From a virus: a stretch of DNA of 33,240 nucleotides. The DNA is taken from the IMG/VR virus record IMGVR_UViG_3300017527_000775, positions 1 to 33,240 of that record. One strand, written 5' to 3'. Position numbers and translations under genes: made by a program. The notes under the pieces were generated by a model, which did no database searches, was not told where the DNA came from, and worked only from the letters and a program-made list of their open reading frames with translations. Positions 319-31,688 of the stretch are shown piece by piece (position 1 is the first letter of the stretch; every line of letters starts with the position of its first letter).

Positions 319-345
319 AACTGCGTTCAAAAATTGAACAGAGTT
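319..345. repeat. 27-bp dispersed palindrome, copy 1
   Basis: Left arm AACTGCGTTC, centre AAAAATT, right arm GAACAGAGTT. The arms mismatch at positions 5 and 6. This copy lies 93 nt before the small-terminase start and upstream of the strong promoter at 382-411. Its right half overlaps the -35 of a weaker candidate promoter at 334-362, so it could act as an operator. Confidence 0.95.
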
Positions 346-362
346 ATAAAGATGCTTATATT
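334..362 (+). promoter_or_regulatory. Candidate secondary promoter overlapping palindrome copy 1
   Basis: TTGAAC (334-339), a 17-nt spacer, then TATATT (357-362). The -35 lies within the right half of the palindrome, so a protein bound there would block it. Both boxes deviate from consensus, and in A/T-rich DNA this may be chance. Confidence 0.25.
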
Positions 363-381
363 AATTTAACCAAATAATATC

Positions 382-411
382 TTGACAACTTACAACACTC
401 TGTGTTATAAT
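382..411 (+). promoter_or_regulatory. Consensus sigma70-type promoter for the late/packaging operon
   Basis: A perfect TTGACA (382-387) and a perfect TATAAT (406-411) are separated by 18 nt. Transcription would start near 418, about 20 nt before the small-terminase ATG at 439. This rules out the in-frame TTG at 382 as a start codon. It is the only full-consensus promoter I noticed in the window and implies recognition by the host housekeeping RNA polymerase. Confidence 0.8.
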
Positions 412-438
412 ATGGGTATTAGAAATGGAGAATTTAAA

Positions 439-981
439 ATGACTTTAGAAAGATACTTCGATGATGATAGGACGGATTTGAGAAGAAGAGAGAGAAGTAA
501 GAAAAGTACTAGAGTGTGGAAAGTCAGCGAGATGTGGGACGTGCATCATAGGATTGCTGAAATGGTAGCGTTAGGGATGAAGAATGTGGATATAGCTAGG
601 AAACTAAACGTCACTCCGCAAACTATCTCTAATGTCAAGAATTCTCCTAAAGTACAGAAATATAAAGATATCGTCAGTGGTGCAATGGCAGCTGACAATG
701 TTGACCTCGGGATTAGGATTCAAAAGATAGCTCCAAAAGCGTTAGATTTTTTAGAGAACTTAATCAAAGGTCAAGAGGAAGATGCAAGCTTACCATTAAG
801 GGCTAAGGCAGCTGAGAGTATGATGGATAGAGCTGGTTATGGAGCTGTTAGGAAATTGGCAGCCGTTAATACTCATTTGACAGCTGAGGATATTGAAGGT
901 ATTAAAGATAGGGCAAGAACTAGTGGCATCATTAAAGCTGTTGTTGATGAAGCTATAGATGTCACAGATTCTGCAAATTAA
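439..981 (+). CDS. terS: Putative terminase small subunit
   Basis: A 180-aa protein that probably recognises phage DNA to start packaging with the large terminase encoded two genes downstream. An N-terminal helix-turn-helix is visible (around IARKLNVTPQTISNVKNSPK), followed by a long, mainly helical region suited to oligomerisation. The start is the ATG at 439: GGAG at 427-430 lies 8 nt upstream, and the in-frame TTG at 382 lies inside the promoter -35. The stop codon (979-981) overlaps the first bases of palindrome copy 2. The call rests on the HTH, size and position beside the large terminase, as small terminases diverge strongly. It could instead be another HTH DNA-binding protein. Confidence 0.75.
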   Translation: MTLERYFDDDRTDLRRRERSKKSTRVWKVSEMWDVHHRIAEMVALGMKNVDIARKLNVTPQTISNVKNSPKVQKYKDIVSGAMAADNVDLGIRIQKIAPKALDFLENLIKGQEEDASLPLRAKAAESMMDRAGYGAVRKLAAVNTHLTAEDIEGIKDRARTSGIIKAVVDEAIDVTDSAN

Positions 982-1006
982 CTCTGTTCATTTTTCGAAC
1001 ATAGTT
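980..1006. repeat. 27-bp dispersed palindrome, copy 2
   Basis: Left arm AACTCTGTTC, centre ATTTTTC, right arm GAACATAGTT. Position 5 is mismatched between arms. It overlaps the stop codon of the small terminase and ends 14 nt before the next start, with the GGAGG ribosome-binding site directly following. Confidence 0.95.
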
Positions 1007-1020
1007 GGAGGAACTTAAAA

Positions 1021-1374
1021 ATGCTTAGCTATCCTATAGAAAAAGGAACTGTTCACAATACATCAAAGACAGGTGGTGCAGATTTCTTCTCTGCAGATCT
1101 AAGTCCTAAACAAACTCCATGTTGCTTTAGGATTGGTATTGCAGTTAATAATACTACCAAGTTGAATGCTATGATTAAACTTAATGATGCTGATGAAGTT
1201 ACAGCAGTTCTTAATGGGAATCAAGATTTGGTAGCAAATGTTTACTATAATTTTGACATCCTTCTTTATCAAGGCAATACACTTAATATTCAATTAGGTA
1301 CTACTAGAACAGTCCTTCATTGCTGCGTACAGGAAATTCCTATTGGTGGAGCAGCAATTCTAGACCCACTTTAA
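1021..1374 (+). CDS. Hypothetical protein between terminase subunits
   Basis: A 117-aa protein I do not recognise. It has a high content of alternating hydrophobic/polar stretches (for example MIKLNDADEVTAVLNGN and YYNFDILLYQGNTLNIQLG) that suggest a small all-beta fold. There is no signal peptide or membrane segment. The ATG at 1021 has a good GGAGG ribosome-binding site immediately after palindrome copy 2. The stop lies 3 nt before the large-terminase ATG, so both are probably translated from one message. A small virion or head-completion role is possible from the fold type and position, but nothing in the sequence proves it. Confidence 0.6.
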   Translation: MLSYPIEKGTVHNTSKTGGADFFSADLSPKQTPCCFRIGIAVNNTTKLNAMIKLNDADEVTAVLNGNQDLVANVYYNFDILLYQGNTLNIQLGTTRTVLHCCVQEIPIGGAAILDPL

Positions 1375-1377
1375 AAA

Positions 1378-2898
1378 ATGAAGATTAATTCTGAAATACA
1401 AGACATTCTTGCAGAATGTTATAAGGATACTAAAGTACTTGCGAAAGTATTATTTCCAGATCTGTTCTTTAGTGAGTTTAGTGTGCTTCATGATCAGATC
1501 TTTGATTTAATAGATAGTGGTGCTAAAAAGATTGCAATAGCTGCCCCAAGGGGAATAGGTAAAACTACTATTGCTAGAACTGTGGCAGCAAAAGGTATCT
1601 TGTTTCGTGATACAAACTTCGTTTCTTATGTCTCGAATTCTGCCTCGTCTGCTGAATTACAGACTGAAAATCTAAAACGTGATTTGCTGGCAAATATAGA
1701 AGTTCGTAAGATTTTTGGTAATGTTAAGATTGCTGATAGTGAATTTCAGCTTGACGATACTTTCGCAAAAACTTCTTGGGTAGCTTACGGTAATACTCTT
1801 GTTATGCCTCGTGGTAGTGGCCAGCAAGTTCGTGGGCTGATCTGGGGCAAGTACAGACCACAACTCATCATCATTGATGACTTTGAGAACAAAGATGAGA
1901 TTATGAATCCTGAGCAAAGAAAGAAGTGGAAAGACTGGTTTCATTCTGATCTTGAGAAAAGTATAAATAGATACAATAATGACTGGCGATTCATCTACAT
2001 CGATACTTTGAAACATGAAGATGCTTTGTTACAAGAGCTGATTGATAGCAGCGATTGGGAAAGTATCACATTAAGTGTTTGCAATGACAAGTATGAAAGT
2101 CTAGCTCCCTCCTATATAACTACTGAAGAACTCAAAGAAGAAGTAGAAACTCACAAAGAAAAAGGAATTCTTGATATATTCTATATGGAGTATATGAACC
2201 TACCTATAGCTACTGAAGATGCCAGCTTTAAACAAGGATATTTTAAATACTATAACGAACCAGAGTTAGATAAAAGTTCTGTTGAGAATATCATCATAGT
2301 TGATCCTGCCAAGACTGTTAAGATGCAAAGTGCTGAGAGTGCTGTTTTAGGTTTAGGGATCAATTATACTACTAACGCTATCATGGTGAGAGATATAGTT
2401 GCTGAGAAACTATATCCAGATGAACTGTATGATCAGATGTTTGATATGAAGGTTCGTTTGAATGCTCACGTAATGGGAATTGAAGTTACCGGTTTAGAAG
2501 AATTCATTAAGCAGCCTATCGAGAATGAGATGCTCAAACGAGGTCCAAGTGTTTCTTGTGAGCTGGTTTGGTTGAAAGCTCGGTCAGGTCCTATTGAAGG
2601 GCAGAAAGTTGTTGCTCAGGAAAGAGGTAAGATTAGAAGAATAGCTGCATTAGTTCCTTATTATCGTCAAGGGTATATCTATCATAATCCTAATTGTTGT
2701 GCTCAATTAGAGGCTCAATTGCTGATGTTTCCTAGATCTAAACGTAAGGATATAATGGATGGTCTTGCATATGTTATTGAGATGATGGATCTCGGCAATC
2801 GATACTTTGACGTTCCTGACGAGGATCCGGATGACTCTGAGGCTGAGTTCACTGAGCTTGATTACGAACTGCCTCTAACTAATTGGAGGACAGCATGA
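1378..2898 (+). CDS. terL: Terminase large subunit (ATPase-nuclease)
   Basis: The 506-aa DNA-packaging motor, which docks on the portal, pumps DNA into the prohead using ATP and cuts the concatemer. Visible are a Walker A motif APRGIGKTT (about residues 56-64), a Walker B strand LIIIDD followed by FE (about 163-170), and the start of an RNase H-like nuclease domain at VDPAKT (about 308-313). A late acidic motif, DIMDGLAY, follows in the C-terminal part. Length is normal for the family. The ATG at 1378 follows the previous stop by 3 nt with no obvious Shine-Dalgarno, suggesting translational coupling. Its TGA stop overlaps the next gene's ATG (ATGA). Confidence 0.93.
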   Translation: MKINSEIQDILAECYKDTKVLAKVLFPDLFFSEFSVLHDQIFDLIDSGAKKIAIAAPRGIGKTTIARTVAAKGILFRDTNFVSYVSNSASSAELQTENLKRDLLANIEVRKIFGNVKIADSEFQLDDTFAKTSWVAYGNTLVMPRGSGQQVRGLIWGKYRPQLIIIDDFENKDEIMNPEQRKKWKDWFHSDLEKSINRYNNDWRFIYIDTLKHEDALLQELIDSSDWESITLSVCNDKYESLAPSYITTEELKEEVETHKEKGILDIFYMEYMNLPIATEDASFKQGYFKYYNEPELDKSSVENIIIVDPAKTVKMQSAESAVLGLGINYTTNAIMVRDIVAEKLYPDELYDQMFDMKVRLNAHVMGIEVTGLEEFIKQPIENEMLKRGPSVSCELVWLKARSGPIEGQKVVAQERGKIRRIAALVPYYRQGYIYHNPNCCAQLEAQLLMFPRSKRKDIMDGLAYVIEMMDLGNRYFDVPDEDPDDSEAEFTELDYELPLTNWRTA

Positions 2899-3176
2899 CC
2901 CCTGTAGCTTATTTAGGAATTTCTTGGGTAGGTAATATAGTAATGTTTGTCGTAGGTATTTGGTTAATAAAGAGATATATTACTGAAGTGAAACATGGAG
3001 TAGATGAGAGTATGAAAATTGCAATAGAATATATGACTAATACTTTCGATAGACAAATAGCACACTGTAGTGAGAAGTTTGACACAATAGAGGGTGGAGT
3101 GCAAGGTTGCTGGGATGCGGTGAACTCTCATGGACATAAAGGTTTGGATAAGGAAGGTTCAAAGGTTACCAGGTGA
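2895..3176 (+). CDS. Small single-span membrane protein (holin candidate)
   Basis: A 93-aa protein with one clear hydrophobic segment at about residues 5-28, followed by a basic boundary (KRYITEVK) and a soluble, mainly helical tail. The ATG at 2895 overlaps the large-terminase stop and has GGAGG at 2885-2889; an in-frame TTG further upstream would lie at that ribosome-binding site. A small one-span protein beside the terminase could be a holin or other membrane protein. No endolysin was found nearby to support a lysis cassette, so the functional label is only a suggestion. Confidence 0.6.
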   Translation: MTPVAYLGISWVGNIVMFVVGIWLIKRYITEVKHGVDESMKIAIEYMTNTFDRQIAHCSEKFDTIEGGVQGCWDAVNSHGHKGLDKEGSKVTR

Positions 3177-3408
3177 TTTCATAAAACTACTTAGAACAAC
3201 AGATGTAATAATTAAGATGCTAATTTGGCAGCAGCACTATATCAGAAATGCAGTTTTACAGATATTTGCTGTAGCTAAAATAGCCAGAAAAGAAGGAAGA
3301 CTTTCAGATCAAGAGTTTATGTTAATCATGGTTTCACTTAGTAAGATTGAAGGACAATTACACTATGTTCAAAATTTGAACAGAGTTATAAATACGGAGA
3401 ATGATTAA
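3130..3408 (+). CDS. Hypothetical helical protein overlapping the membrane protein gene
   Basis: A 92-aa, basic, predominantly alpha-helical protein of unknown function. The ATG at 3130 gives a 47-nt overlap with the preceding gene and has no strong ribosome-binding site, so the start is uncertain; an internal ATG at 3217 is possible. Palindrome copy 3 (3361-3387) lies inside its coding region and encodes most of the tail YVQNLNRVINTEND. The gene thus appears to have absorbed, or been extended through, the palindrome. The frame ends 8 nt into the next gene. Confidence 0.5.
   Translation: MDIKVWIRKVQRLPGDFIKLLRTTDVIIKMLIWQQHYIRNAVLQIFAVAKIARKEGRLSDQEFMLIMVSLSKIEGQLHYVQNLNRVINTEND
3361..3387. 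repeat. 27-bp dispersed palindrome, copy 3 (inside a coding region)
   Basis: Left arm CACTATGTTC, centre AAAATTT, right arm GAACAGAGTT. It is translated as the C-terminal residues of the upstream 92-aa protein and lies 13 nt before the ATG of the first fibre gene. The first base of the left arm deviates (C for A). Confidence 0.93.
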
Positions 3409-3901
3409 AGTGACTGAGCGTAAAATATACTTTGGTTCTCATGGTCCCTACCTTTATGATGATACTGACTTGATAGGTGATGGAGATGGAGACTTCAGCG
3501 GTCAGGCCTATGATAGTATCGTGACTGATGGTGATATGTTTGTAGGTGGAGATATTACTGTTGGAAGCTTCAGTCTGGAAGGTGCATCTCCTGATTTAAA
3601 TCTGCACAATACTTCTGACGAAGACACTGATGGAGGTCGTGAGAGTAAGATTGACTTTCGTGGTGATCAGAGCGGTGGTGAGGAATCTTCTCTTGCTTGG
3701 ATCGAAGGTAGTCACAAAGGAACTGGTGACGATGAGAAAGGGCAGATCAAATTCTATGTCAACGACGGGGATGATGGAGATACTCCTACTGAAGTGCTGA
3801 CCATAGACGAAGATGGACTGGATCATGGGACACTAGGTGGATTAGGTGATCCAGAAGATCATCCTCATTATATAGCATTGGCTATTGCACTTGGTGGTTA
3901 G
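3401..3901 (+). CDS. Tail-fibre/appendage structural protein
   Basis: A 166-aa acidic, Gly/Asp-rich protein. The GDGDGD stretch, the GDITV segment and the C-terminal GGLGDPEDHPHYI are typical of phage fibre shafts and tips; a similar D-D-HP-Y motif recurs in many tail-fibre proteins. It is probably a short fibre or fibre-attachment piece acting on the virion surface. The ATG at 3401 is only 1 nt from its GGAGA sequence, so the in-frame GTG at 3410, with proper spacing, may be the real start. It is followed after 2 nt by a second, larger fibre-like gene. Confidence 0.6.
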   Translation: MIKVTERKIYFGSHGPYLYDDTDLIGDGDGDFSGQAYDSIVTDGDMFVGGDITVGSFSLEGASPDLNLHNTSDEDTDGGRESKIDFRGDQSGGEESSLAWIEGSHKGTGDDEKGQIKFYVNDGDDGDTPTEVLTIDEDGLDHGTLGGLGDPEDHPHYIALAIALGG

Positions 3902-3903
3902 AA

Positions 3904-5568
3904 ATGATAGCACTTAATAATACGGATGTAATAGAAGGTGGTGCATCAGCAAATTCAGTTGTTGACTTTGTTATAAGTGGTCTGGATGGGTACACTATTA
4001 CTCAATTAGCTCAGGGTCAGCTAACTACCACTTACACAACTGCTTTGCTCACCGCTACACAATCAACAGCTGTTTCCTCCATAGTTTTAACAAATACAGA
4101 CTCTTCAGCGAGAACTGTTAATCTGTATCTTGACTCCGCAGATGGTGGAAATCCTCGCAATTTGATTCCTAAGGACTTGTCATTAGGAGCTGGATCTACT
4201 CTGATCTTTAATGGCAAGAGCATGACAGTTGTGGACACTGATGGTGGTATGCTAACTGCACCAGCTCTTGTTCCACTCACCGTCCCAAAAGGCGGAACAG
4301 GTGTTGCTACTATTACAGATGGCGCAGTAGTTATTGGAGCTGCTGCGGCTGCTATCGAAGAAGTCACACCTTCTGCTCTTGGCAAAGTTTTAGTCGATCA
4401 GGGAAGTGGAACAAATCCGGCTTATGAGTATAGACCTATAAACAATCTACTCACAAATCCTATGTTTAACGTCTGCTCTAAAGCTAGTTTTGAAAATTAT
4501 AGAACACTTTCTGATGCTACTACAACTGTCGCAGGAACAACTTGTACCTCAACAGCTCATGCTCTTTCAGCTGGCATGCTTGTAAAAGACGGAGCAGGAG
4601 TTTGCTTTGAAGTAGTTTCCATAACAGACGCTAATATATTTGAAGTACATACTACAGGTGCAGATAATAATAGTCAATGGTATGAGGCTGGTCCTGGTTT
4701 TGTCGGTGCAGATACAGATGCTCCTGATACTTGGGAGAAGACGAATTCAGCATCCTTTCAGTTGACACGCATACAGCAGGATTCGAGTGCACCTGTGAAA
4801 GCTTTATATGAACTGGAAATAGTTAACACAAGTGGATCAGACGGATATGTAGATTGTAATCTTGGACTAAGTGATAGCAATGTTGCTTTACTAGCAGCAT
4901 TTGAAGGCGCTGAAGTTGCTTTATCTTGTTATATTAGAGGACAGAGTGCCGCTAGTAAAGTAGCCATTGGTACGTGGGAGGATGGCTTTCAGCAGGTTGA
5001 TATAAATAGTGGAACAGGTTCAGAATGGCTTGAAGGTACAAGAACAGTAGGAACATCACTTTCTGCTTTTCATCCGTTTAGTATAAAGGTTTTGACTGGC
5101 GAAACTGTTTATGTAACTATGTGTGTCCTGATTTATGGAGCCTCAATTGGTGTAGGAAACTTTTATAAAGATCCTCACTGGGTTATGTTAGAAGAAACCT
5201 GGTGGTTAGAAGGCTTTGATCCTACTGCGGATACTTTTTCTGATGTTGCAGCTGGAGAAGATATAAATATTGAAGCAGCAACTAATATGAGAGTACCAAA
5301 GGATGTAATTTGTCTGTATGTATTTCTTCAGGCAAGAGATTCAGATGCATCTACAGGTGGACCAGCTTTTGATTTATACTCAGATCTTGCTGGTACAAAT
5401 AAGCATATGACTGCTCGTATTGCCACTGGTGGAACTACCTTTGACGATAAGTGGCTAATGGAAACAGGGTTAGTTTGGACAGAAGACGGAGACATCTCTT
5501 ATGGAGTTTCTGCTAGCGGAGCCAATACGATTGATGCAGGGATTAAAATCCTTGCCGTTCTTTTATGA
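3904..5568 (+). CDS. Putative tail-fibre / receptor-binding protein
   Basis: A 554-aa, Thr/Ser/Gly-rich, mainly beta protein. The N-terminal third ends with PKGGTGVATITDGAVVIGAA, a linker pattern common in phage tail fibres (GGTG...T.G...G). Then comes a boundary NNLLTNPMFNV, which resembles the start of carbohydrate-binding or jelly-roll modules found at fibre tips, followed by a long beta-rich C-terminal region. The role is probably host recognition. It follows the small fibre gene directly, with a weak ribosome-binding site, so coupling is likely. It ends with TGA at 5566-5568, 7 nt before the next ATG. Confidence 0.6.
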   Translation: MIALNNTDVIEGGASANSVVDFVISGLDGYTITQLAQGQLTTTYTTALLTATQSTAVSSIVLTNTDSSARTVNLYLDSADGGNPRNLIPKDLSLGAGSTLIFNGKSMTVVDTDGGMLTAPALVPLTVPKGGTGVATITDGAVVIGAAAAAIEEVTPSALGKVLVDQGSGTNPAYEYRPINNLLTNPMFNVCSKASFENYRTLSDATTTVAGTTCTSTAHALSAGMLVKDGAGVCFEVVSITDANIFEVHTTGADNNSQWYEAGPGFVGADTDAPDTWEKTNSASFQLTRIQQDSSAPVKALYELEIVNTSGSDGYVDCNLGLSDSNVALLAAFEGAEVALSCYIRGQSAASKVAIGTWEDGFQQVDINSGTGSEWLEGTRTVGTSLSAFHPFSIKVLTGETVYVTMCVLIYGASIGVGNFYKDPHWVMLEETWWLEGFDPTADTFSDVAAGEDINIEAATNMRVPKDVICLYVFLQARDSDASTGGPAFDLYSDLAGTNKHMTARIATGGTTFDDKWLMETGLVWTEDGDISYGVSASGANTIDAGIKILAVLL

Positions 5569-5575
5569 GGAAACT

Positions 5576-5989
5576 ATGAATATATCATTTGATCCAGAGC
5601 ATGTATTTGAACTGGAAGATGACAGGAAGGTATATTTCACCCTTGTAGATGATGCTGCGAAGGAATATAAGTGGCATGGCGATGTGCCGAGTGAGGGAGA
5701 TATTCAGGCATTCCTTGATGGAACAAAGGATAAAATCCTCTTATCGATCAGGCGTAGAGAGTATCCTGAAGCCAGGTTTAAAAAACTAAGCGACGTCGAT
5801 AAGTATTTGGCTGAAAATCCAGGAGTGATTCCTGAGCCTTGGATATCAACTCATCCAATCAAGACTAACATTATCGATGGAGAGAAGATTCTTCCTAAAG
5901 TGTGGCAGTCCTTAGATGGAATAAGAGGAAAAGATCCAAATGTAGATGTGCTTATAGTAGCACTGGAGAATATATTTGGAAGACGGTAA
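5576..5989 (+). CDS. Hypothetical protein at the end of the fibre cassette
   Basis: A 137-aa soluble protein I do not recognise; it has an N-terminal FDPEHVFELEDDRKVYFTL segment and a mixed alpha/beta pattern. The ATG at 5576 is preceded by GAGGA; an in-frame upstream ATG at 5501 lies inside the fibre gene and lacks a matching ribosome-binding site. Its position suggests a fibre chaperone or small tail protein, which is inference. After the TAA at 5987-5989 the frame stays open for a further 27 codons through palindrome copy 4; I treat this as probably non-coding. Confidence 0.5.
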   Translation: MNISFDPEHVFELEDDRKVYFTLVDDAAKEYKWHGDVPSEGDIQAFLDGTKDKILLSIRRREYPEARFKKLSDVDKYLAENPGVIPEPWISTHPIKTNIIDGEKILPKVWQSLDGIRGKDPNVDVLIVALENIFGRR

Positions 5990-6025
5990 GAGCACCAACT
6001 GGACTTAGAATTAGATAAGATTATT

Positions 6026-6052
6026 AACTCCGTTCAAAATTTGAACAGAGTT
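6026..6052. repeat. 27-bp dispersed palindrome, copy 4
   Basis: Left arm AACTCCGTTC, centre AAAATTT, right arm GAACAGAGTT. This is the only copy whose arms pair at position 5, but position 6 is C against A. It lies 11 nt upstream of the portal ATG, with GGAG directly after the right arm. Confidence 0.95.
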
Positions 6053-6063
6053 GGAGAAACTTT

Positions 6064-8031
6064 ATGCCATACATAATTAAAGGTAATGAACCAGTTGTAG
6101 ACTATGCTGAGATATCAAGAAATCAGTATGATTATAACTATCCTAAAGGCTTAGATTTAAAGCCTGATTCTGATTTGCATAGCTTTATAGTTGATAAGAT
6201 CTTCCACAATGCTAGAATCAGTGCTACTATTATGACTAATCGTTTTCCTCAGTGGAGAGAAATAGATCGTAAGTTGACAGCTTATATTCCGACTACTGAT
6301 AAAGAGAAAGAGATTAAGGAAGATGATGTTCGTAAGCCGACTAGTATAGTATTCCCATACAGCTATGCGATTATGGAAAGCTTGTTAGCTTATCTCGTAA
6401 CAGCGTTCTTTCCTGAGCCAATCTTTCGTTATGAAGGAGCTAGTCCAGATGATGTTCTTGGTGCTATTATGATAGAGAAGGTTATTCAACTCCACTCCAA
6501 TAAGTCAAAAATAGCATTGAATCTGCATACCATGTTTAGGGATTCTATGGCTTATGGATTAGGTCCTTGTGTGCCACTCTGGAGAAAGAAGGTTGGTCAG
6601 AAGGTAGTTAAAACGGCTGGTGATGGATTCTGGGATACATTAGGAAGTTTTATCAAAGGGCCACAAAAGAGAACTATAGCTGACAATCAGATTATATTTG
6701 AAGGTAATGCTTTACAGAACATAGACCCTTATAAGTACCTTCCTGATCCTAATGTTGCAGTGCAAGATGTACAACTTGGTGAGTTCTCTGGATGGATTGA
6801 TACTACTAATCTAATGGACTTATTAAGTGATGAACAGAACGATTCTGATATGTTTAACGTGAGATATCTTAACCATGTTAAGAATGTTAGGAGTACTGTT
6901 TATAAGTACGATGAAAGTGAGAGAACGAAAAAAGCTGGTGGGCCGTTTGCTGATAATACAGTTACTAATCCACTTGATGTAATCTGGATGTACGTTAAGT
7001 TAATTCCAAAAGAGTGGAAGATTGGTACTAGTGAGTATCCTGAAAAGTGGCTATTTGGGTTGGCTAGTGATAGTATAGTTATTAAAGCTAAACCTTTAGG
7101 AATGACTCATGGAGATTTTCCTGTGGTGGTTAGTGCTCCAGATTTTGACGGCTATAGTTCTACGCCAATATCAAGAATGGAGATCTTATTTGGCTTACAA
7201 GAAGTTCTTGATTGGATGTTTAATAGTCATGTAGCTAATGTTCGTAAAGCTATTAATGATATGCTGGTTGTTGACCCTTATTTAGTTAATGTCAATGACT
7301 TGAAAGATCCTAAGCCGGGAAAACTTATACGTCTTCGTAGACCAGCGTGGGGAAGAGGAGTTGAAAATGTAGTTCAGCAATTAGCTATTAATGACATTAC
7401 AAAGCAGAACATTGCTGACAGTTCATTTGTTATGAAGTTTATGCAGCAAATAGGTGGGACTGACAATCCTGCAATGGGTACACTTCGTTCTGGTGGGCCA
7501 GATCGTTTAAGTGCAAGAGAATTTCAAGGGACAGCTGCTGGAGCTATTTCAAGAATGGAGCGAATAGCTCGTGTTGTTGGACTGCAAGCTATGCAAGATA
7601 TAGGTTACTTCTTCGCCCACAATGTTCAGCAAATGATGACTCAAGAACTCTATGTAACCACAACTGGACGGTGGGAAGAAACCTTAATGAGGGATTATGC
7701 TGACTCTGTTAAATCTCAGAGAATGAAAGTTTCTCCTTTTGACATACTAGTAGATTATGATCTAATTGTACGTGATGGTAGTGTGCCGGGAGGAAACTTT
7801 GCCGATGTATGGGTACAGATGTTTCAAGTCTTAGCCAGCCAACCTGAGCTTTATCAAAGCTTTGATCTGGTTAAGATTTTTAAGCATATAGCTCGTAATT
7901 TAGGAGCTAAGAATGTTGAGGAATTTGAGCGGAAGACGCCACCTACTCAGCAGCAAATAATGCCTGATGAGCAGGTGGAAGAAGAAGTTCAGCGTGGGGA
8001 TTTAGTACCTATACAAGGAGGCATGCAATGA
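6064..8031 (+). CDS. Portal protein (head-tail connector)
   Basis: A 655-aa protein with the size, composition and layout of podovirus portal proteins. A mixed N-terminal part contains SIVFPYSYAIMESLLAYLVTA and a FRDSMAYGLGP segment. A helical, Gln-rich C-terminal part includes RSGGPDRLSAREFQGTAAGA, a pattern I associate with portal proteins. The portal forms the ring at the unique vertex through which terminase loads DNA. The ATG at 6064 follows palindrome copy 4 and a GGAG ribosome-binding site. The TGA stop overlaps the next ATG (ATGA). Its place just before scaffold and capsid genes fits the usual order. Confidence 0.8.
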   Translation: MPYIIKGNEPVVDYAEISRNQYDYNYPKGLDLKPDSDLHSFIVDKIFHNARISATIMTNRFPQWREIDRKLTAYIPTTDKEKEIKEDDVRKPTSIVFPYSYAIMESLLAYLVTAFFPEPIFRYEGASPDDVLGAIMIEKVIQLHSNKSKIALNLHTMFRDSMAYGLGPCVPLWRKKVGQKVVKTAGDGFWDTLGSFIKGPQKRTIADNQIIFEGNALQNIDPYKYLPDPNVAVQDVQLGEFSGWIDTTNLMDLLSDEQNDSDMFNVRYLNHVKNVRSTVYKYDESERTKKAGGPFADNTVTNPLDVIWMYVKLIPKEWKIGTSEYPEKWLFGLASDSIVIKAKPLGMTHGDFPVVVSAPDFDGYSSTPISRMEILFGLQEVLDWMFNSHVANVRKAINDMLVVDPYLVNVNDLKDPKPGKLIRLRRPAWGRGVENVVQQLAINDITKQNIADSSFVMKFMQQIGGTDNPAMGTLRSGGPDRLSAREFQGTAAGAISRMERIARVVGLQAMQDIGYFFAHNVQQMMTQELYVTTTGRWEETLMRDYADSVKSQRMKVSPFDILVDYDLIVRDGSVPGGNFADVWVQMFQVLASQPELYQSFDLVKIFKHIARNLGAKNVEEFERKTPPTQQQIMPDEQVEEEVQRGDLVPIQGGMQ

Positions 8032-8267
8032 GCGCAGCTTTATGGAGGGAGTTCAGAAATAGCTCAGTTTGGTATGAGTTGAAGAAAGAACTGAATGTTT
8101 GGCTGGAGAATGTAAGGGATCATTTGGAGAGTTCTGCCACAGATGAAAACGAACTCTATCGCAATCAGGGACGAGCTGATGCAGTAAGATATCTGTTGGG
8201 ACTTCCAAGGGTGATGCAAGAAGTATTTGAAGAAGCAATTGAAGAAGCAACTGAAAAGGAGGAATAA
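8028..8267 (+). CDS. Small helical protein between portal and scaffold
   Basis: A 79-aa, strongly helical, acidic protein with a central NELYRNQGRADAVRYLLGLP. Similar short proteins with a YRNQGR-like stretch are often found next to portal genes in phages; their function is not known to me. The ATG at 8028 overlaps the portal stop and has a strong AAGGAGG. The stop lies 2 nt before the scaffold ATG. The tight coupling suggests a role in prohead assembly. Confidence 0.6.
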   Translation: MSAALWREFRNSSVWYELKKELNVWLENVRDHLESSATDENELYRNQGRADAVRYLLGLPRVMQEVFEEAIEEATEKEE

Positions 8268-8269
8268 AG

Positions 8270-9172: not shown

Positions 9173-9199
9173 AACTATGTTCGATTTTTGAACAGAGTT
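9173..9199. repeat. 27-bp dispersed palindrome, copy 5
   Basis: Left arm AACTATGTTC, centre GATTTTT, right arm GAACAGAGTT. It begins directly after the scaffold stop codon and ends 18 nt before the next ATG, with ACGGAGGG in between. Confidence 0.95.
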
Positions 9200-9217
9200 C
9201 AACGGAGGGTTCTTATA

Positions 9218-9553: not shown

Positions 9554-9597
9554 TTCTACAATCACGTAGAAACAGTATATGGTATTACTGATTTTTT
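9554..9597 (+). terminator. Weak hairpin pair with T-run (possible attenuator/terminator)
   Basis: TTCTAC/GTAGAA (9554-9571, loop AATCAC) is followed by CAGTA/TACTG (9573-9590) and then T6 at 9592-9597. The second stem is only 5 bp, so at most partial termination is expected. It lies between the candidate decoration gene and the beta-helix gene and could lower expression of the latter. Confidence 0.3.
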
Positions 9598-9622
9598 AAT
9601 AAAGACAGAGGAGGTACCGACC

Positions 9623-10519: not shown

Positions 10520-10528
10520 GAGGTTGTT

Positions 10529-10897: not shown

Positions 10898-10898
10898 T

Positions 10899-12423: not shown

Positions 12424-12440
12424 ACCTTTTACTGGATATA

Positions 12441-12525
12441 GTGGCAAAGAGCTGAGCTGAGCTGAGTGAGTAACGGACTGACAACCTAAACTGAATTAGG
12501 TGGAAGATGAGGCACTCTTTGTCAC
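12441..12525 (+). ncRNA. Structured RNA element after the capsid gene
   Basis: Outer arms GTGGCAAAGAG (12441-12451) and CTCTTTGTCAC (12515-12525) form an 11-bp stem with one G-U pair. Inside are a 6-bp hairpin ACCTAA/TTAGGT (12484-12501, loop ACTGAA) and a GAGCT repeat run. There is no T-run, so it is not a simple terminator. It may stabilise capsid mRNA or limit readthrough. The right arm overlaps palindrome copy 6 by 3 nt. Confidence 0.45.
12449..12470. repeat. Short GAGCT tandem repeat
   Basis: Three GAGCT units followed by GAGTGAG. It lies within the structured post-capsid element and is probably a slippage product or part of that structure. Confidence 0.7.
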
Positions 12526-12549
12526 TATGTTCAAATTTTGAACAGAGTT
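12523..12549. repeat. 27-bp dispersed palindrome, copy 6
   Basis: Left arm CACTATGTTC, centre AAATTTT, right arm GAACAGAGTT. It ends 5 nt before the ATG at 12555. The gene has no clear separate ribosome-binding site, so the AGAG in the right arm may have to serve. Confidence 0.93.
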
Positions 12550-12758: not shown

Positions 12759-13487
12759 ATGAGCTTAGTATCAGTTAGACAAAAGTTTATAGAGTTCAGT
12801 GGTAGGTATGATTTAGTTAGTAGCACTACTACTTGGGCAGATAATGGAGCTGATTTCTTTCTCAATGCTGGGCAAAATTATCTTGATAGATTGGAGTTGA
12901 TCAATAAGAGCTATTCAAGAGTTTTCAAAACCTTAGCTATTGATGACTGGTATATTACCTTTCAGCGTTGTAGAGCTATTCAAGAAGTCTGGGCTAGTGA
13001 TAGTGATTATGAGCGTTGGCAATTAGAACGTAAAGATTTTGATCTATTACGTGCAGCTTATAATGAATTACCAGCAAATCTTGACTCCGGCGATCCACTA
13101 TATTACGCTCCTATGAGTCTTCGCAAAACTCCCGAAACTGCTACTGAAATGACTATTGATTATATCTATGATAGTGAAACCACTGTAGCTGCTGACCATT
13201 ATACCTATAATGGAATCATCTTCATGCCTCCAACTGATGAAGTATTACTTATCGAAGTTCGAGGTTTATTCTATCAGCCTGAATTAACTAATGACAGTGA
13301 TACTAATTATTGGACAGAAGTTCATCCGCATATATTAGTAATGGCTGGTTGCAGAGCACTTGAGTTAATGTACAGAAATACTCAAGGTGTTAAGGATTGG
13401 GAAACTTCTATCAAGCTTGAAATCACTGGTCTTGGTATGGATGAAGCTGAACAAGAGCTTGCCGAGTTTACTGAAATGGAGGGCTAA
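12759..13487 (+). CDS. Putative head-tail adaptor protein
   Basis: A 242-aa protein placed directly after the capsid gene block, where adaptors that sit beneath the portal are usually encoded. The N-terminal helical segment with DFFLNAGQNYLDRLELIN and the later MAGCRALELMYRNTQG helix recall phage adaptor/gp6-like proteins. The middle part is beta-rich. It probably completes the connector after packaging. The ATG at 12759 has GAGG upstream. The TAA stop overlaps palindrome copy 7. The call comes from position and layout more than from a definitive motif. Confidence 0.5.
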   Translation: MSLVSVRQKFIEFSGRYDLVSSTTTWADNGADFFLNAGQNYLDRLELINKSYSRVFKTLAIDDWYITFQRCRAIQEVWASDSDYERWQLERKDFDLLRAAYNELPANLDSGDPLYYAPMSLRKTPETATEMTIDYIYDSETTVAADHYTYNGIIFMPPTDEVLLIEVRGLFYQPELTNDSDTNYWTEVHPHILVMAGCRALELMYRNTQGVKDWETSIKLEITGLGMDEAEQELAEFTEMEG

Positions 13488-13513
13488 ACTGTGTTCGAAA
13501 TTTGAACATAGTT
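13487..13513. repeat. 27-bp dispersed palindrome, copy 7
   Basis: Left arm AACTGTGTTC, centre GAAATTT, right arm GAACATAGTT. At position 5 the arms would form a G-U pair in RNA. It overlaps the last base of the adaptor stop codon and ends 15 nt before the next ATG. Confidence 0.95.
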
Positions 13514-17929: not shown

Positions 17930-18363
17930 TAATAAAACTGTTGCCAGACCAGGTAATGAATTACTGGCCAATGATTAAAGGTGGAATAGAAGCTTCTTTG
18001 CCTCCGGTTACTGGAGATAGTAAGGAGAAGATGAACAATATCTTGATAGAGTTACTTGACGGCAGGTTGGACTGTTGGATAGCTTTTAGAAAAGATATTG
18101 AAGTTGACGTGGTAGCTATAATAATTACCAGCATTTCATATGACAGTAGAGGTGATACTAGCAGTTTGCTGCTATATTGCGTATATGCTCTCAAACAAAC
18201 AGAAGGTCAAGATTGGGTTGAGGGTTATGAAGCACTCAGCAAATATGCAAGAGCTAACAATTGCAGTAGAATGGTAGCTTATTCCAATGATGAGAAAATA
18301 CTTAAAATTGTTGAAAAGTTTGGTGGGGATGCAAGTTATAGGTTCCTATCTATTCCCATATAA
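17926..18363 (+). CDS. GNAT-fold acetyltransferase-like virion-associated protein
   Basis: A 145-aa protein with the outline of a GNAT domain: an N-terminal strand-helix part, a central RKDIEVDVVAIIITSISYD strand pair, LLLYCVYAL, then a helix WVEGYEALSKYARANNCSRM and a late strand/helix (MVAYSNDEKILKIVEKFGGD). The acetyl-CoA loop (Q/R-x-x-G-x-G/A) is not clearly present, so enzymatic activity is doubtful. Similar proteins sit beside internal virion genes in podoviruses. The ATG at 17926 overlaps the previous TGA; an upstream GTG at 17905 is less likely. The TAA overlaps palindrome copy 8. Confidence 0.5.
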   Translation: MIIKLLPDQVMNYWPMIKGGIEASLPPVTGDSKEKMNNILIELLDGRLDCWIAFRKDIEVDVVAIIITSISYDSRGDTSSLLLYCVYALKQTEGQDWVEGYEALSKYARANNCSRMVAYSNDEKILKIVEKFGGDASYRFLSIPI

Positions 18364-18388
18364 CTATGTTCAATTTTTGAACAAAGAC
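18362..18388. repeat. 27-bp dispersed palindrome, copy 8
   Basis: Left arm AACTATGTTC, centre AATTTTT, right arm GAACAAAGAC. The last two bases depart from consensus, and position 5 gives A against A. It overlaps the preceding stop codon and ends 16 nt before the next ATG, with GAGGAGG between. Confidence 0.92.
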
Positions 18389-21040: not shown

Positions 21041-21067
21041 AACTATGTTCGAAATTTGAACGGAGTT
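21041..21067. repeat. 27-bp dispersed palindrome, copy 9
   Basis: Left arm AACTATGTTC, centre GAAATTT, right arm GAACGGAGTT. The variant bases in the right arm create GGAG (21062-21065), which has the correct 6-nt spacing to be the ribosome-binding site of ATG 21072. Here the palindrome itself is the translation signal. Confidence 0.95.
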
Positions 21068-24000: not shown

Positions 24001-25556
24001 ATGAAAGCTTCTTCGAGCGCATTAATGAGATGCGAAAACTTATCGGTCAAGAGCCTATGAAGAAAGTTGACAACTACTTTTCGTTTGTTAGAGCTTTTAA
24101 TATTCTCGATAAGAGTGGTGTGTTTACTGACATGCTTACTGCAACACCAGAAACTATCAATGCTAGATATATTAAGTATGGAGCTACTCCATTTAAGTTT
24201 GATAAGGCTAGAAAAATTGCTGGCATGGCTAATATTAAGAAAATGATTCCAGTCGAACTTGATGCCTTTGATATCTTTGAGACCTACATGGAGCCTGCTA
24301 CTAGACATCTACATATAAGTCCTATTGTAGCAAAGGTTACAGAATATTTAGCTAAGTTACCTGCAGAACCTAATGGACCTCAGCAAGTATATTTATCTGA
24401 ATATAAGCCTAGGTTAGCTAACTTTCTCGAGCGCTGGAATAAGCATATATCTGGTCATCCAACATACTTATTAAGTGAAGCTTTTGGAGAATCTGGAGCC
24501 AAGTTGTTAGCAAAGGGAGCTACCAAACTCAATAGAAATTTTGCTTATTCTATTCTTGGTGCTAATTTAAGATCAGCTTTGATCCAAGCCAGTGCTCTGA
24601 GAAATACAGTTACTGATATAGGTTTGACTCATACTTTGGAAGGCATCAAAACTATTGTCGATCCTAAGATGCGTAAGTTTGCTATTGATTCTAGTAATGT
24701 GCTTCTACAGAGGGATTTTGATATAGTTGTCGGGGATGCTATGAGGTTCTTGCAAGGAGGGAAGGTTGCGAGAACTTATAAGAGTATCGGCAGTGCGAGC
24801 TTGAAACCTCTACAATGGCTGGATAAAGAAACTGCTATCGCTACTTGGAATGGTGGTTATAAGATGGCTTTGAAGAGAGGTTTGAAAGGTAAGGATGCAA
24901 TTAACTTTGCCGATGATGTAGTTGTGAGAACACAGGCAAGTTCACTGCCAGGCGATCTAGCTCCAATCCAACGAAGTGCTTTGGGAAGAGCCTTTACATT
25001 GTTCCAAACCTTTGTTATCAACGACTGGGGATTTTTGACTAGAGATGTGCTAGGTATTGGGAAGGACGTACCGATTACTAATAAAGCTGTGTTTAAAAAA
25101 GTAATGCGCTATGTTTTAGCTACTACACTTATCAACATGGCTTATGAAGATGTAGTTGGGATTAGATCTCCATTTCCTACTCCATTAAGAGAGTTTGCAA
25201 GAAGCAGAAGTGAAGATGCTTCAGCAATCGGAACCTTTGTAAATGTAGCTAAAGAGCTTATTGAACCTATGCCTGTTGTTGGAAGTACTCGTTATGGTAA
25301 GAATGTTTTTGGACCTGCTGAGGAGTATATCGGTGAGGTGATTGGTAAGATTACTGACCAGCCGTTAGCCAAGCCTTGGCCTGAATTGCTACTTCGTCCT
25401 GCAGGTATTCCCGGCACTAGTCAGATATATAAGTATCAGCGTGGGAGAGCTAGGGGAGAAGGTCATGTTGCATCACTTCTTGGTAAGTTTGAAAAACAGA
25501 GAAAGGAAAGTACTATGAAAGGTATTCCGGGATTAGGTAGTATTCCCAGTTTGTAA
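21072..25556 (+). CDS. Very large internal virion / ejection protein
   Basis: 1,495 codons, the largest gene in the window. A hydrophobic Gly/Ala segment (AAATLATGIPAMILGGLAGG) lies near residues 60-80, and a second one (ANIGALVAIAVEGGAVLGG) lies further on. Long charged helical stretches fill the middle. The C-terminal region, around FADDVVVRTQASS and ALGRAFTLFQTFVI, resembles the large-polyvalent-protein-associated domains of phage proteins injected with the DNA. The start is ATG 21072, with the GGAG inside palindrome copy 9; the earlier TTG 21066 overlaps the palindrome. No lytic transglycosylase motif is evident to me. The TAA overlaps palindrome copy 10. A role in ejection through the envelope is inferred. 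Confidence 0.65.
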   Translation: MAIDILEEIRKRRTAQSLDLDDDLDADDIFAEAGIGTVEKPTYRKGPSVGEELLRGSEAAATLATGIPAMILGGLAGGTAPLFGMDPEETLETIQSTLTYPFGLKEPTKIEEKVVSIAMKPFEMIRESADFWGHKVVDMGTERGWHPEITANIGALVAIAVEGGAVLGGPKAAKTANVKWLQPYRAKLRKIRANAKAAAEAAEAEPRGTRPFQQFLDGETPPPLKSQKYIDKLMDLEAEMMKDPRMATLVEQYVENMKAGGPGAPGVTTPVQPKLLGQQGEIAAGAIRLPEFMDRPIKPVSQRLAEMRARRRTTTEDYFGRFVEEPVDPVLEATLEVFEQWERSLGKDPSDFPRRKLSEITASQRIDWLRRRRGTTADDYRVKATESDITLTEQLRQDRLGEIDEMIERISKEDASDPRLDILRRDRERLMREGEARPFRTGETEVKVDITKDGETIKADVGEIDSSTNLRYDGEFVGQHSWTYMEKGRETTFISKTKNRAEVESMLSDKLLEYERTSGKLTTTPQSQADKYGIEYRGSEEAKMWQLPPEIEKQLLKEKRMMPTDEEFRKGWEVVEEEHIFWDPQTGEEFRASSARAVGDELKFHRAEVAARSAVNEVYNIDKFQEYFESWKAGNNQINLGDLKERLVDHLENVPDRIFETSADIIDYQSRGDMLIGEINKEMRKAMPEAPPEVAEAPPVGQLRKRRTREIEASIEEKVDIGDKLSPEARNAYRTYKEFQEYATETSEARNLSEVGSDLATLLDERGSFSLEKMNHVQKAALQRLTADAKRLGKDLSEVLRRAGFDEATIAAIRKMTEDVTQKVEPERGMPPKNVAVVSDVPGDTIWNQRKTNKKLQKLPTYVSEIKQLFEANELKGRRIFEGIENPIRTFEEAGLKELIYYPYRVAEKTARVEWNAVKKQISSLRKSVPSKSGKRIGAYAMGQQKHGVKLMQEMGVDIPALTEAELAAYNQMRAGYESFFERINEMRKLIGQEPMKKVDNYFSFVRAFNILDKSGVFTDMLTATPETINARYIKYGATPFKFDKARKIAGMANIKKMIPVELDAFDIFETYMEPATRHLHISPIVAKVTEYLAKLPAEPNGPQQVYLSEYKPRLANFLERWNKHISGHPTYLLSEAFGESGAKLLAKGATKLNRNFAYSILGANLRSALIQASALRNTVTDIGLTHTLEGIKTIVDPKMRKFAIDSSNVLLQRDFDIVVGDAMRFLQGGKVARTYKSIGSASLKPLQWLDKETAIATWNGGYKMALKRGLKGKDAINFADDVVVRTQASSLPGDLAPIQRSALGRAFTLFQTFVINDWGFLTRDVLGIGKDVPITNKAVFKKVMRYVLATTLINMAYEDVVGIRSPFPTPLREFARSRSEDASAIGTFVNVAKELIEPMPVVGSTRYGKNVFGPAEEYIGEVIGKITDQPLAKPWPELLLRPAGIPGTSQIYKYQRGRARGEGHVASLLGKFEKQRKESTMKGIPGLGSIPSL

Positions 25557-25581
25557 CTGTGTTCAATTTTTGAACAGAGTT
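25555..25581. repeat. 27-bp dispersed palindrome, copy 10
   Basis: Left arm AACTGTGTTC, centre AATTTTT, right arm GAACAGAGTT. It overlaps the stop of the 1,495-codon gene. Unlike the other late copies it is not followed by a + strand gene but by the convergent-transcription terminator, 6 nt downstream. Confidence 0.95.
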
Positions 25582-26768: not shown

Positions 26769-27997
26769 ATGTCTTCTTCCTCCTCACTTGTAACTCTGTT
26801 CAAATTTCGAACAAAGGTATGATCATGTTCTGGCCTGTAGATTATCTTTCCAGAAGGAACATGGCGTTCTAAAAACTTCATTGCTTCAAGTGATTTAAGA
26901 ACGTTCTCCATATCCCATTCAGATGAGTCGCTATAAAAGATAGTCATCAATTCAGAAAATGTCATCTCATGTTTTTGTCCCAACTCGACCATTACTCTAC
27001 TAACGAGGTCAGCTTGTGAACTCTTCCCAACGCCTCTAAATGTATTAGGCATCTTTAATTCAGTATCTTCAAGCAATTTAATTCCCGCTTGTAGATCATC
27101 TAAACCTATCACCATAGAGTCAGTCCTAGCTGCATTGTGAATTATAGCTAACTTCATCGCCTGAGCTGGTCTACGTTCAAAGTAGCCGTTAAATCTGTGA
27201 TCTTTAAAGGGTGGATTTTCGTCTTGAGCTACATACCACTGAGCCCAAAAACTAACAAACTCATCCGTTACGGTAAAATGACCTTGCAGATACCAGATAC
27301 GTTCAAGGTCTTCTATCAACTTCACTCGCATTTCTAATTCTTCTTTTGACAGAAAAGGATCAGGAACTGGTCTAGCTCTCTTTGGCTCATAGACAAAAAC
27401 CATTCTAGCTGTTAATCCTAATCCTATAGCATCAAGTGACATTGAAGATCTTATTAACTCAGGAGTAGTAGCTCCAACAAGGTTTAACCATACACCAGTT
27501 ATGTTATCTGTTCCCTGATGTTTAGTTCTATATGTCCACTCACTCCTGCAATCGTACCAGTCAGCAAGGTCGCTCATTAGTGATAAGTTACGATAACCTA
27601 AAAACACAGTTAATTCTTGACTATGAACTGTTAATGAACTATGAAATACCATCTCACCAGTAGTTGGATTGATCTCATTTTCATTAGCATTACTTAGTTC
27701 TCTAATCAAAGCTTCACGAGTAATAGCTTCAGCAGCTAATTTAATTCCTGTAACTTCACGTTGAATTTCTAGTGCAGGATTCATAGCTGTTCCTTTTCGT
27801 GCTTTGCCTGAGGGAGCTACCAGAATTATATACATATTAGGGTAAAAGGTTAAGCTTCCCCAAGGCAGAAAGCATTTACGTTGGAGTGCTGAAGCGATAG
27901 TACTTACAGCCATCCACTTACGAAACAGATACGGTGGTTCTGTGTTTTTGGTGTAACTCATATAGGTAGCTATCCAATCATCTAATTCTCGTGACAT
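26765..27997 (-). CDS. DUF3987-like ATPase (putative replicative helicase/primase-associated)
   Basis: A 410-aa protein with a P-loop variant, LVAPSGKARKGTA (about residues 59-71), and a VHSQELTVFLG strand that may carry the Walker B-like acid. AMKLAIIHNAA in the second half recalls the DUF3987 family found in phage and plasmid replication regions. The C-terminal winged-helix-like part precedes a tail partly encoded by palindrome copy 11 (FVRNLNRV), then an acidic EEEED end. It probably unwinds DNA or works with a primase, inferred from family and its place downstream of the polymerase. The ATG is at 27997, with only a weak ribosome-binding site. Confidence 0.55.
   Translation of the reverse strand: MSRELDDWIATYMSYTKNTEPPYLFRKWMAVSTIASALQRKCFLPWGSLTFYPNMYIILVAPSGKARKGTAMNPALEIQREVTGIKLAAEAITREALIRELSNANENEINPTTGEMVFHSSLTVHSQELTVFLGYRNLSLMSDLADWYDCRSEWTYRTKHQGTDNITGVWLNLVGATTPELIRSSMSLDAIGLGLTARMVFVYEPKRARPVPDPFLSKEELEMRVKLIEDLERIWYLQGHFTVTDEFVSFWAQWYVAQDENPPFKDHRFNGYFERRPAQAMKLAIIHNAARTDSMVIGLDDLQAGIKLLEDTELKMPNTFRGVGKSSQADLVSRVMVELGQKHEMTFSELMTIFYSDSSEWDMENVLKSLEAMKFLERHVPSGKIIYRPEHDHTFVRNLNRVTSEEEEDI
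26792..26818. repeat. 27-bp dispersed palindrome, copy 11 (inside a coding region)
   Basis: In + orientation the left arm is AACTCTGTTC, the centre AAATTTC and the right arm GAACAAAGGT (last two bases degenerate). It is translated on the − strand as the NLNRV part of the ATPase C-terminus, in the same register as copy 3 in its gene. It lies 23 nt before the next − strand start. Confidence 0.92.
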
Positions 27998-28002: not shown

Positions 28003-28053
28003 CTACCTATAACTTTGTTCAAAAATTGAACATAGATTACCTCTCCAATTCAT
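28003..28053 (-). CDS. Possible 16-aa leader peptide spanning a palindrome
   Basis: A perfect AAGGAGGT (28062-28069, overlapping the polymerase stop) precedes ATG 28053 by 8 nt. The frame encodes MNWRGNLCSIFEQSYR and ends with TAG 6 nt before the ATPase ATG. Palindrome copy 12 lies inside it. It may be a leader that couples translation of the ATPase, whose own ribosome-binding site is weak, or an accident of sequence. Confidence 0.3.
   Translation of the reverse strand: MNWRGNLCSIFEQSYR
28011..28037. repeat. 27-bp dispersed palindrome, copy 12
   Basis: In + orientation the left arm is AACTTTGTTC, the centre AAAAATT and the right arm GAACATAGAT. Position 5 gives T against T. It lies 13 nt upstream of the − strand ATPase ATG at 27997. 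Confidence 0.92.
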
Positions 28054-30513: not shown

Positions 30514-31172
30514 AATATATACTCCCTTATGTTATCCTTCAGATAAGTATTATTTACAATAAGTTCTCCAACCTTACCTTCTTCAGAATAGTGCTCCAAT
30601 TTAGTTACTACGATCTTATGTACTCCTGCATTGATCAAGACAACGAGACAAACTTTGCAAGGAATCTGATCATTCATATAGAGAGTAGCTCCCTTCACTT
30701 CAACTCCCATCCTAGCAGCATTTGCAATACAGTTCTGCTCAGCATGGGCAGCCGTGCACAAGTTTATCCCTTCGCCTGATGCGTAGCCGAGAGCTTTTCT
30801 CGGACACATATTCTGATCAGATATGAAACCTACTTTCTGTCGTAGATAACCGTCAACCTTCATGCGCTCACTCCCACAATGAGGAACTCCTCTCGCAGGA
30901 CCATTATAGCCCGTGGCTATTATAGAATTATCACGAACTAGAACGGCCCCTATTTGGCGAGAGTGGCAACGAGACTTCGATCCGACTGCATTGCAGATAT
31001 TGTAGAAGTATTGATCCCAAAGAGATTCACTCTTAGAAACAAGTGGATTACTGCTTTGGGCAATTGAGACAGATTCTCCACACTCAACACAACGAGGATC
31101 ATCGAATGAGCTAACATGAATAATGCTGTCGGGAGGTAGATTGGAGCACCTTGGACAAGTGCTATTTTTCAT
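30510..31172 (-). CDS. dCMP deaminase with N-terminal zinc ribbon
   Basis: A 220-aa enzyme that converts dCMP to dUMP, the precursor of dTMP. The catalytic HAE (143-145) and zinc-binding PCKVC (171-175) motifs are present, and GYNGPARGVPHC fits the dCMP-deaminase subgroup. An extra N-terminal ribbon with CPRC (6-9) and CVEC (28-31) is unusual. The ATG at 31172 follows AAAGGAGG and overlaps the previous stop (ATGA). It overlaps the polymerase start. Together they form a dU-producing enzyme coupled to a polymerase with a uracil-recognising domain. Confidence 0.85.
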   Translation of the reverse strand: MKNSTCPRCSNLPPDSIIHVSSFDDPRCVECGESVSIAQSSNPLVSKSESLWDQYFYNICNAVGSKSRCHSRQIGAVLVRDNSIIATGYNGPARGVPHCGSERMKVDGYLRQKVGFISDQNMCPRKALGYASGEGINLCTAAHAEQNCIANAARMGVEVKGATLYMNDQIPCKVCLVVLINAGVHKIVVTKLEHYSEEGKVGELIVNNTYLKDNIREYIL

Positions 31173-31501
31173 CTAGCATCCTCCTTTACCATTGCATAAA
31201 GTTTGAATAGATAATTGAGGATGTCGACAAAGTTCTCCTCATAAGCTTCAATTGGAATAGGATCATGAGTTATGTTCCCATCTCGGAAGTCGTGATTGAC
31301 CTGATCAGACAATGAAACTATTTGTTTGCTGACAAGGTTCATCATAACCTCTTGCGGATACTGATCCCGATAGCTGCCGATCCGCTTGAAGTTGGCCATA
31401 ACATCTTTAACGCTGAAATAGCGAGCTTCACGATCTCGCATTATGTCAGCAGCCTTATTGAGGATTCTTTTCTTGTGTTTCGCTAACATTTCCTTTTCCA
31501 T
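31169..31501 (-). CDS. Hypothetical helical protein upstream of the deaminase
   Basis: A 110-aa all-alpha protein. It begins with KKRILNKAADIMRDREARYF and ends with a VDILNYLFKLYAMV helix. The arrangement, with a central QEVMMNLVSKQIVSLS helix, is like small phage proteins of the DUF6378/MazG-like type, but I see no clear EXXE metal site. The ATG at 31501 has GGAG 7 nt upstream. It overlaps both its upstream gene (47 nt) and the deaminase (ATGA). A nucleotide-metabolism role would fit the neighbours; this is weak. Confidence 0.5.
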   Translation of the reverse strand: MEKEMLAKHKKRILNKAADIMRDREARYFSVKDVMANFKRIGSYRDQYPQEVMMNLVSKQIVSLSDQVNHDFRDGNITHDPIPIEAYEENFVDILNYLFKLYAMVKEDAR

Positions 31502-31673
31502 CTTTTTTCTCCTTTTCTTTGCGTTTATTCTCCAACATAACTGGAGCGATTTCTTGCCATAGATCCATCAGAACACTTTGAATAGCACTATTTATATTCT
31601 GATAGGGTTCCCTAGCTAATCTCTGCTTCGCTTCCATACGAACGAGATGTGATAGTCCTTTAACTGTGTTCAT
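31455..31673 (-). CDS. Hypothetical protein starting at a palindrome
   Basis: Up to 72 aa, helical with a Lys/Glu-rich tail (KRKEKEKKDGKGNVSETQ). If translation starts at ATG 31673, the start codon and the next three codons lie inside palindrome copy 13 and no ribosome-binding site is visible. A start at ATG 31637 (MEAKQRLAREPYQNINSAIQ) would have AAAGGA about 13 nt upstream. The start is therefore unresolved. The gene overlaps the next one by 47 nt. Confidence 0.45.
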   Translation of the reverse strand: MNTVKGLSHLVRMEAKQRLAREPYQNINSAIQSVLMDLWQEIAPVMLENKRKEKEKKDGKGNVSETQEKNPQ

Positions 31674-31688
31674 TTTTTGAACGGAGTT
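31662..31688. repeat. 27-bp dispersed palindrome, copy 13
   Basis: In + orientation the left arm is AACTGTGTTC, the centre ATTTTTT and the right arm GAACGGAGTT. It overlaps the end of the 31687-31929 gene by 2 nt and contains the first possible start codon of the next − strand gene. Confidence 0.94.

Follow-up and report, generated by a model that had tools for sequence, protein, structure and literature searches.

Here we report that a 27-bp palindrome scattered along the genome of an uncultured phage is a two-fold symmetric DNA site composed of independent half-sites, and that in related phages its changing letters follow one residue of a phage-encoded ParB-methyltransferase. This covariation makes it very probable that the ParB-methyltransferase reads the palindrome. 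We further propose that this phage-encoded protein nucleates at the palindrome as ParB does at parS, and that the site thereby loads a sliding, genome-modifying enzyme; we hold this full statement to be probable, at a confidence marked down because its second half, sliding and modification, is the weaker one.

The window (the whole 33,240-nt stretch of phage DNA analysed) contains 13 copies of the palindrome (Table 1), where none is expected. A scan with the consensus AACT-N-Y-GTTC-(7 A/T)-GAAC-R-N-AGTT, allowing up to three mismatches, found exactly these 13 and no others, and had zero matches in 100 dinucleotide shuffles of the window. When symmetric motifs were searched for blindly, with no consensus as input, the strongest palindrome in the window consisted of the same 13 sites, at 14.7 bits per half-site; the blind search found none in the shuffled window and none with an even centre in the window itself. 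Both searches bear out the positions, shared arms and 7-bp A/T centre described in an earlier, sequence-only reading of this DNA. The arm is unconstrained at position 5, where only 1 of the 13 copies has matching arms.

Table 1. Copies of the palindrome and parts of its proposed reader in the window
Feature	Position	Strand	Remarks
Copy 1	319..345		37 bp upstream of perfect sigma-70 promoter (382-411)
Copy 2	980..1006		Junction of terS and gene 1021
Copy 3	3361..3387		Upstream of gene 3401
Copy 4	6026..6052		Upstream of portal gene (6064); this junction in Desulfofustis phage holds that phage's version
Copy 5	9173..9199		Upstream of gene starting at about 9218
Copy 6	12523..12549		3' of major head protein gene, 5' of gene 12555
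Copy 7	13487..13513		Overlapping stop of gene 12759-13487
Copy 8	18362..18388		Junction of genes 17905 and 18405; junction occupied in Desulfofustis phage and in 13/30 genomes
Copy 9	21041..21067		Upstream of giant gene
Copy 10	25555..25581		Gap separating convergent genes
Copy 11	26792..26818		Within 3' end of primase gene; equivalent place in relatives G001, G002 and G005
Copy 12	28011..28037		Upstream of primase gene (minus strand)
Copy 13	31662..31688		Start of gene preceding deaminase genes (minus strand)
ParB-CTPase fold + helix-turn-helix + N6/N4 DNA methyltransferase, 427 aa	31942..33225	-	Pfam, structure models, covariation; proposed palindrome reader
ParB N-terminal (CTPase fold) domain, residues 9-87	32965..33201	-	GGRR and ENxxR motifs retained
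Helix-turn-helix, helices 127-134 and 138-153	32767..32847	-	Structure models
V138 codon, letter-tracking residue	32812..32814	-	Covariation; equivalent of ParB R173 / Noc Q158
N6/N4 methyltransferase domain, DPPY and GSG motifs	31966..32565	-	

As that reading had also noted, 11 of the 13 copies sit near or at a start codon in the same direction, copies 1 and 10 being the exceptions; the 11 end about 4 to 24 nt upstream of the next same-strand start codon or, in the case of copy 13, overlap one. Start-proximal copies usually lie directly 5' of the Shine-Dalgarno sequence, and the AACT of the palindrome often supplies the TAA stop codon of the preceding gene. Any insert of 27 bp that separates a stop codon from the following Shine-Dalgarno sequence must lie a short way from a start codon, and across the family we found no fixed distance or orientation to start codons, many sites lying within genes or between convergent genes. 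The promoter at 382-411 (+ strand) matches sigma-70 at 12 of 12 positions, with a TG preceding the -10 element, and is the sole perfect one found in positions 1-20000. It falls within the listed open reading frame 382-981, so the true start of TerS is probably internal to this frame, 3' of the TTG at 382.

Used alone as a protein query, the TerL of the window phage had no match among viral contigs; relatives were gathered with a DNA-polymerase alignment, which yielded 80 from IMG/VR. Each of the 52 related contigs examined yielded, in the blind search, a palindrome of like build at dispersed positions (51 of them odd-centred; in G039 it ranked second among the motifs), and genomes of the family carry 6 to 24 copies each. 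No such palindrome appeared in shuffled controls of the related contigs, nor in even-centre controls except for six A/T-rich genomes, where the hits overlapped the same kind of site. The letters differ by lineage: GTTCAA in the window phage and, elsewhere, GTTCAT, GTCCCAA, GGTTAA, GTTTAA, GTTACAT, GAATAA, ATTAAA and others. G046 (L139+L158) has a centre 1 bp shorter and therefore even (nCTatG[t/g]taAA-TTta..., 15 copies); it also has an arginine at the specificity residue described below, both spacing class and residue being as in classical parS/ParB. The more distant Microcystis phage Mel-JY34, whose fusion is 24% identical, showed no clear dispersed palindrome.

Four family contigs (L240, L241, L242 and L245) are binned in MAGs named Clostridia, WOR-3, Nanohaloarchaea and 'bacterium' and are probably misbinned phages; L240, L242 and L245 each carry dispersed palindromes of their own. 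In L028 (G001), at 15031-17465 and 17462-18651, the DNA polymerase and primase genes each occupy two frames, by assembly error or a real frameshift.

The nearest named phage, Desulfofustis phage LS06-2018-MD01 (TerL 50% identical), lacks the window palindrome and has its own version, TGCTATGTCCCAANTTGGGACATAGCA, of equal length and build, in at least nine copies. Some of its sites occur at matching junctions: 5' of the portal gene, 5' of terS, 3' of the primase gene and between the counterparts of genes 17905 and 18405. At the homologous junctions of relatives, where the sequence-only reading had proposed to look, the palindrome is thus found in each phage's own letters and some junctions are shared, but junctions gain and lose sites individually; a site 5' of the portal gene, for example, is present in 11 of 29 genomes.

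Across 456 sites, changes in one arm are independent of those in the other and without compensation, arm matching falling slightly below the expectation for independence at several positions. An RNA stem is expected to show compensating changes. Arms that differ in this independent, uncompensated way identify the sites as double-stranded DNA half-sites for a symmetric protein.

To relate proteins to these letters, a column scan compared 5,000-5,150 alignment columns per run, drawn from about 24 shared protein families, with the changing core letters, after removal of each clade's mean and with permutations (n=200) kept within clades. It replaced a general phylogenetic regression, which was dominated by one deep split. 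The top column was residue 138 of the ParB-methyltransferase (V138 in the window phage), which for two core positions reached F=46; the next column had 10, and the 200 within-clade permutations peaked at 23.6; with a four-position core it was still first in all three clade cuts, and zero or one of 200 permutations reached it. The scan had no input of the published ParB/Noc specificity residue. In crystal structures of ParB and Noc, the equivalent of V138 is the specificity switch (ParB R173, Noc Q158), and at residue 173 of Caulobacter ParB, Jalal and colleagues showed by crystallography and binding that arginine reads guanine and glutamine reads adenine (PMC7383237). The tracked base lies 6 bp from the dyad here, compared with about 6.5 bp for ParB/Noc (PMC7383237).

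Residue and letter are connected by a simple rule: among the 46 genomes whose letter is clear, histidine pairs with G (6/6), glutamine with A (5/5) and all other residues with T (34/35), with seven independent origins on the tree for the rule and none against it. Extended by arginine with G, taken from the published ParB structure, the rule was right in 13 of 14 contigs outside the scan, some of them close kin of scanned genomes, while predicting T throughout was right in 9 (L115, the same contig as G061, was excluded). Its sole failure there was L108, a distant member. Only a single specificity position accounts well for the letters, and the rule does not extend to the outer arms. A ribbon-helix-helix protein, the first candidate reader, was dropped because it fails to track the palindrome letters; a single-strand DNA-binding-like protein and TerS had higher whole-protein distance correlations, which reflect shared descent, yet were unremarkable in the column scan.

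The ParB-methyltransferase gene starts next to the window end (33,240). Pfam finds ParB_N and N6_N4_Mtase in 41 of 41 family members scanned, and the motifs GxRR (Box II), ENxxR (Box III) and DPPY are present in 48, 49 and 47 of 49 members, respectively. In the AlphaFold model a helix-turn-helix follows the CTPase fold (pLDDT 94) and residue 138 opens the recognition helix; residues 1-200 match structures of Spo0J, Noc and KorB, and the C-terminal part matches the fold of the methyltransferases CcrM, HpyAVI and RsrI, with a Rossmann fold and DPPY/FxGxG-type motifs. A PDB sequence search with the helix-turn-helix alone matched zero ParB chains, and we liken it to that of ParB on its fold, its position after ParB_N and its recognition-helix pattern. 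The canonical ParB C-terminal dimer domain is absent, the methyltransferase domain standing in its place, and no ParA-binding motif was found in the fusion protein; the 29 genomes searched held no ParA over the cut-off and no recognisable tyrosine integrase. In the fusion of the Desulfofustis phage (L013:10342-11634, +) DPPY is replaced by DFPY, and G048 is also without DPPY; going by this motif, methyltransferase activity is possibly changed or lost in these two phages. At least 46 relatives encode, beside the ParB-methyltransferase, a conserved ribbon-helix-helix-like protein of about 80 aa (L023:9826-10071, L013:9872-10105); the corresponding place lies just past the window end.

Across genomes, about two-thirds of the sites are mostly non-coding, against a gene coverage of about 94%, and about one-third lie mostly inside genes. 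Mean site spacing is about 2-6 kb and, in nearly all of 41 genomes, more even than that of randomly chosen gene junctions (mean z -1.8, median p 0.014); uniform placement, too, would give less even spacing (mean z -1.6, 41 genomes). Among gene pairs that flank sites, the shares of co-directional, convergent and divergent pairs are about those seen for all junctions, with convergent pairs slightly over-represented (78/687 vs 215/2,892 of all junctions), and convergent gaps are occupied as readily as other gaps. Gene starts bearing a site show no excess of promoters, sigma-70-like ones being present at 6% of them and at 10% of starts without a site. Given the even spacing, the use of convergent gaps and the lack of promoter excess, the best reading of the sites is that the ParB-methyltransferase loads at them as at parS, and not that they are stoperators, RNA hairpins or module boundaries. 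The last of these had been suggested from the sequence, and it is not supported by sites that turn over between junctions, lie mostly within genes in about one-third of cases and use convergent gaps equally.

Based on these observations, we propose that a dimer of the protein would read both half-sites via its helix-turn-helix, as supported by the way the letters co-vary with the residue known to set ParB/Noc specificity. It would then close into a nucleotide-gated clamp and slide, as may be expected because the ParB CTPase motifs are retained and because ParB, Noc and KorB do so (PMC12704722, PMC11790492). Sliding from sites about 2-5 kb apart would carry the attached methyltransferase over the entire phage genome, a reach suggested by that attachment together with the even spread of sites, and the modification would most likely shield the phage genome from host nucleases. 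That the palindromes load a sliding methyltransferase is a tentative claim, not far from an even call. The most detailed version, in which a CTP-gated ParB clamp loads at evenly placed sites, slides and modifies all DNA between them while site and reader co-evolve family-wide, is possible and somewhat more doubtful. Even spacing could also be of use in silencing or in packaging.

The main rival to loading of a genome-modifying enzyme is silencing of the KorB type, in which the ParB-methyltransferase on the same sites would serve chiefly to repress phage genes or set their timing, acting on them directly or reaching promoters by sliding, with methylation secondary or site-marking. KorB of plasmid RK2 provides the precedent: this CTPase clamp of the ParB family is loaded at scattered sites of 16 bp and silences promoters that lie as much as 1.5 kb from them (PMC11790492). 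Like the phage palindromes, its OB sites are many and dispersed per replicon, some of them far from promoters; unlike the phage protein, KorB is a repressor partnered by KorA and is without a methyltransferase. The numerous copies directly 5' of gene starts, and the nearness of copy 1 to the only perfect promoter found in 1-20000, are consistent with silencing. We nevertheless consider it unlikely, as sigma-70-like promoters are no commoner at site-bearing starts than at others, convergent gaps are filled as readily as the rest, no KorA-like partner was identified, and proximity to start codons is what any insert of this length at such junctions would show.

It is highly improbable that a different phage regulator, for instance the small ribbon-helix-helix-like protein, uses the palindrome as its operator. 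The protein's place beside the ParB-methyltransferase in 46 relatives and a site just 5' of its gene in about one-third of genomes would suit such a role, but its strand residues are near-constant while the palindrome letters change, and the scan gave none of its columns a score approaching that of the ParB column. Similarly remote is a partition (ParABS-type) centromere set maintaining a plasmid-like prophage: a ParB-fold reader and parS-like sites are at hand, but ParA over the cut-off and tyrosine integrase are both missing from the 29 genomes, the protein has no ParA-binding motif, and the one named relative is predicted to be strictly lytic (PMC10370329). The least probable role is that of an RNA hairpin acting in transcripts (processing, stabilisation or translation control), for although the nine copies tested gave better folds than most shuffled versions and many lie directly 5' of ribosome-binding sites, the arms differ without compensation and match below independence at several positions, the sites occur on both strands and between convergent genes, Rfam gave no match, and the letters are tracked by a protein recognition-helix residue.

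Among known systems, ParB-parS and Noc-NBS of bacterial chromosomes share with the phage system a CTPase fold and, after it, a helix-turn-helix for reading a palindrome of two-fold symmetry, as well as the specificity residue and its glutamine-adenine rule. Their sites are 16 bp and even-centred, whereas the phage palindrome is 25-27 bp and mostly odd-centred; the phage fusion carries a methyltransferase where those proteins have their dimer domain and is without a ParA, and the phage family is apparently lytic, with site letters that vary across it. The SAS/ESAS repeats of Cluster K mycobacteriophages also lie 5' of some gene starts, and ESAS has 17-bp inverted repeats (PMC3203893), but SAS is asymmetric, 13 bp long, directional and tied to translation starts, with no ParB-methyltransferase link described. 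The stoperators of Cluster A mycobacteriophages are likewise many repressor-binding sites spread genome-wide (PMC9283540); they are, however, asymmetric sites of a monomeric immunity repressor in temperate phages. The suggestion that the palindromes are stoperators, which are asymmetric prophage-repressor sites, is not supported, given their symmetry and a phage family with no recognisable tyrosine integrase in 29 genomes. The suggestion of phage-wide operators came closer without being exact, in that the palindrome is a dispersed candidate protein-binding site whose set is conserved in relatives. The sequence-only reading recognised no matching published family; the ParB/Noc/KorB site class does match, visibly only through the relatives and the protein.

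ParB-N6/N4-methyltransferase fusions of identical domain make-up (PF02195 + PF01555) are already known to be frequent in phages (PMC12704722). The available text of that 2025 survey offers only a possible anti-defence role for them, reports nucleotide binding for only some and does not describe their DNA target sites, and none were found in the literature searched, the coverage of which is incomplete. What is new here is a first candidate DNA target for this common kind of phage protein. The fusions gain concrete candidate targets, dozens of natural protein-site pairs with differing letters and a simple residue rule, so that two questions become testable together: the function of the fusions and the natural evolution of ParB-type specificity. 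If the proposed mechanism is true, it would represent a new way of spreading a modifying enzyme across a genome.
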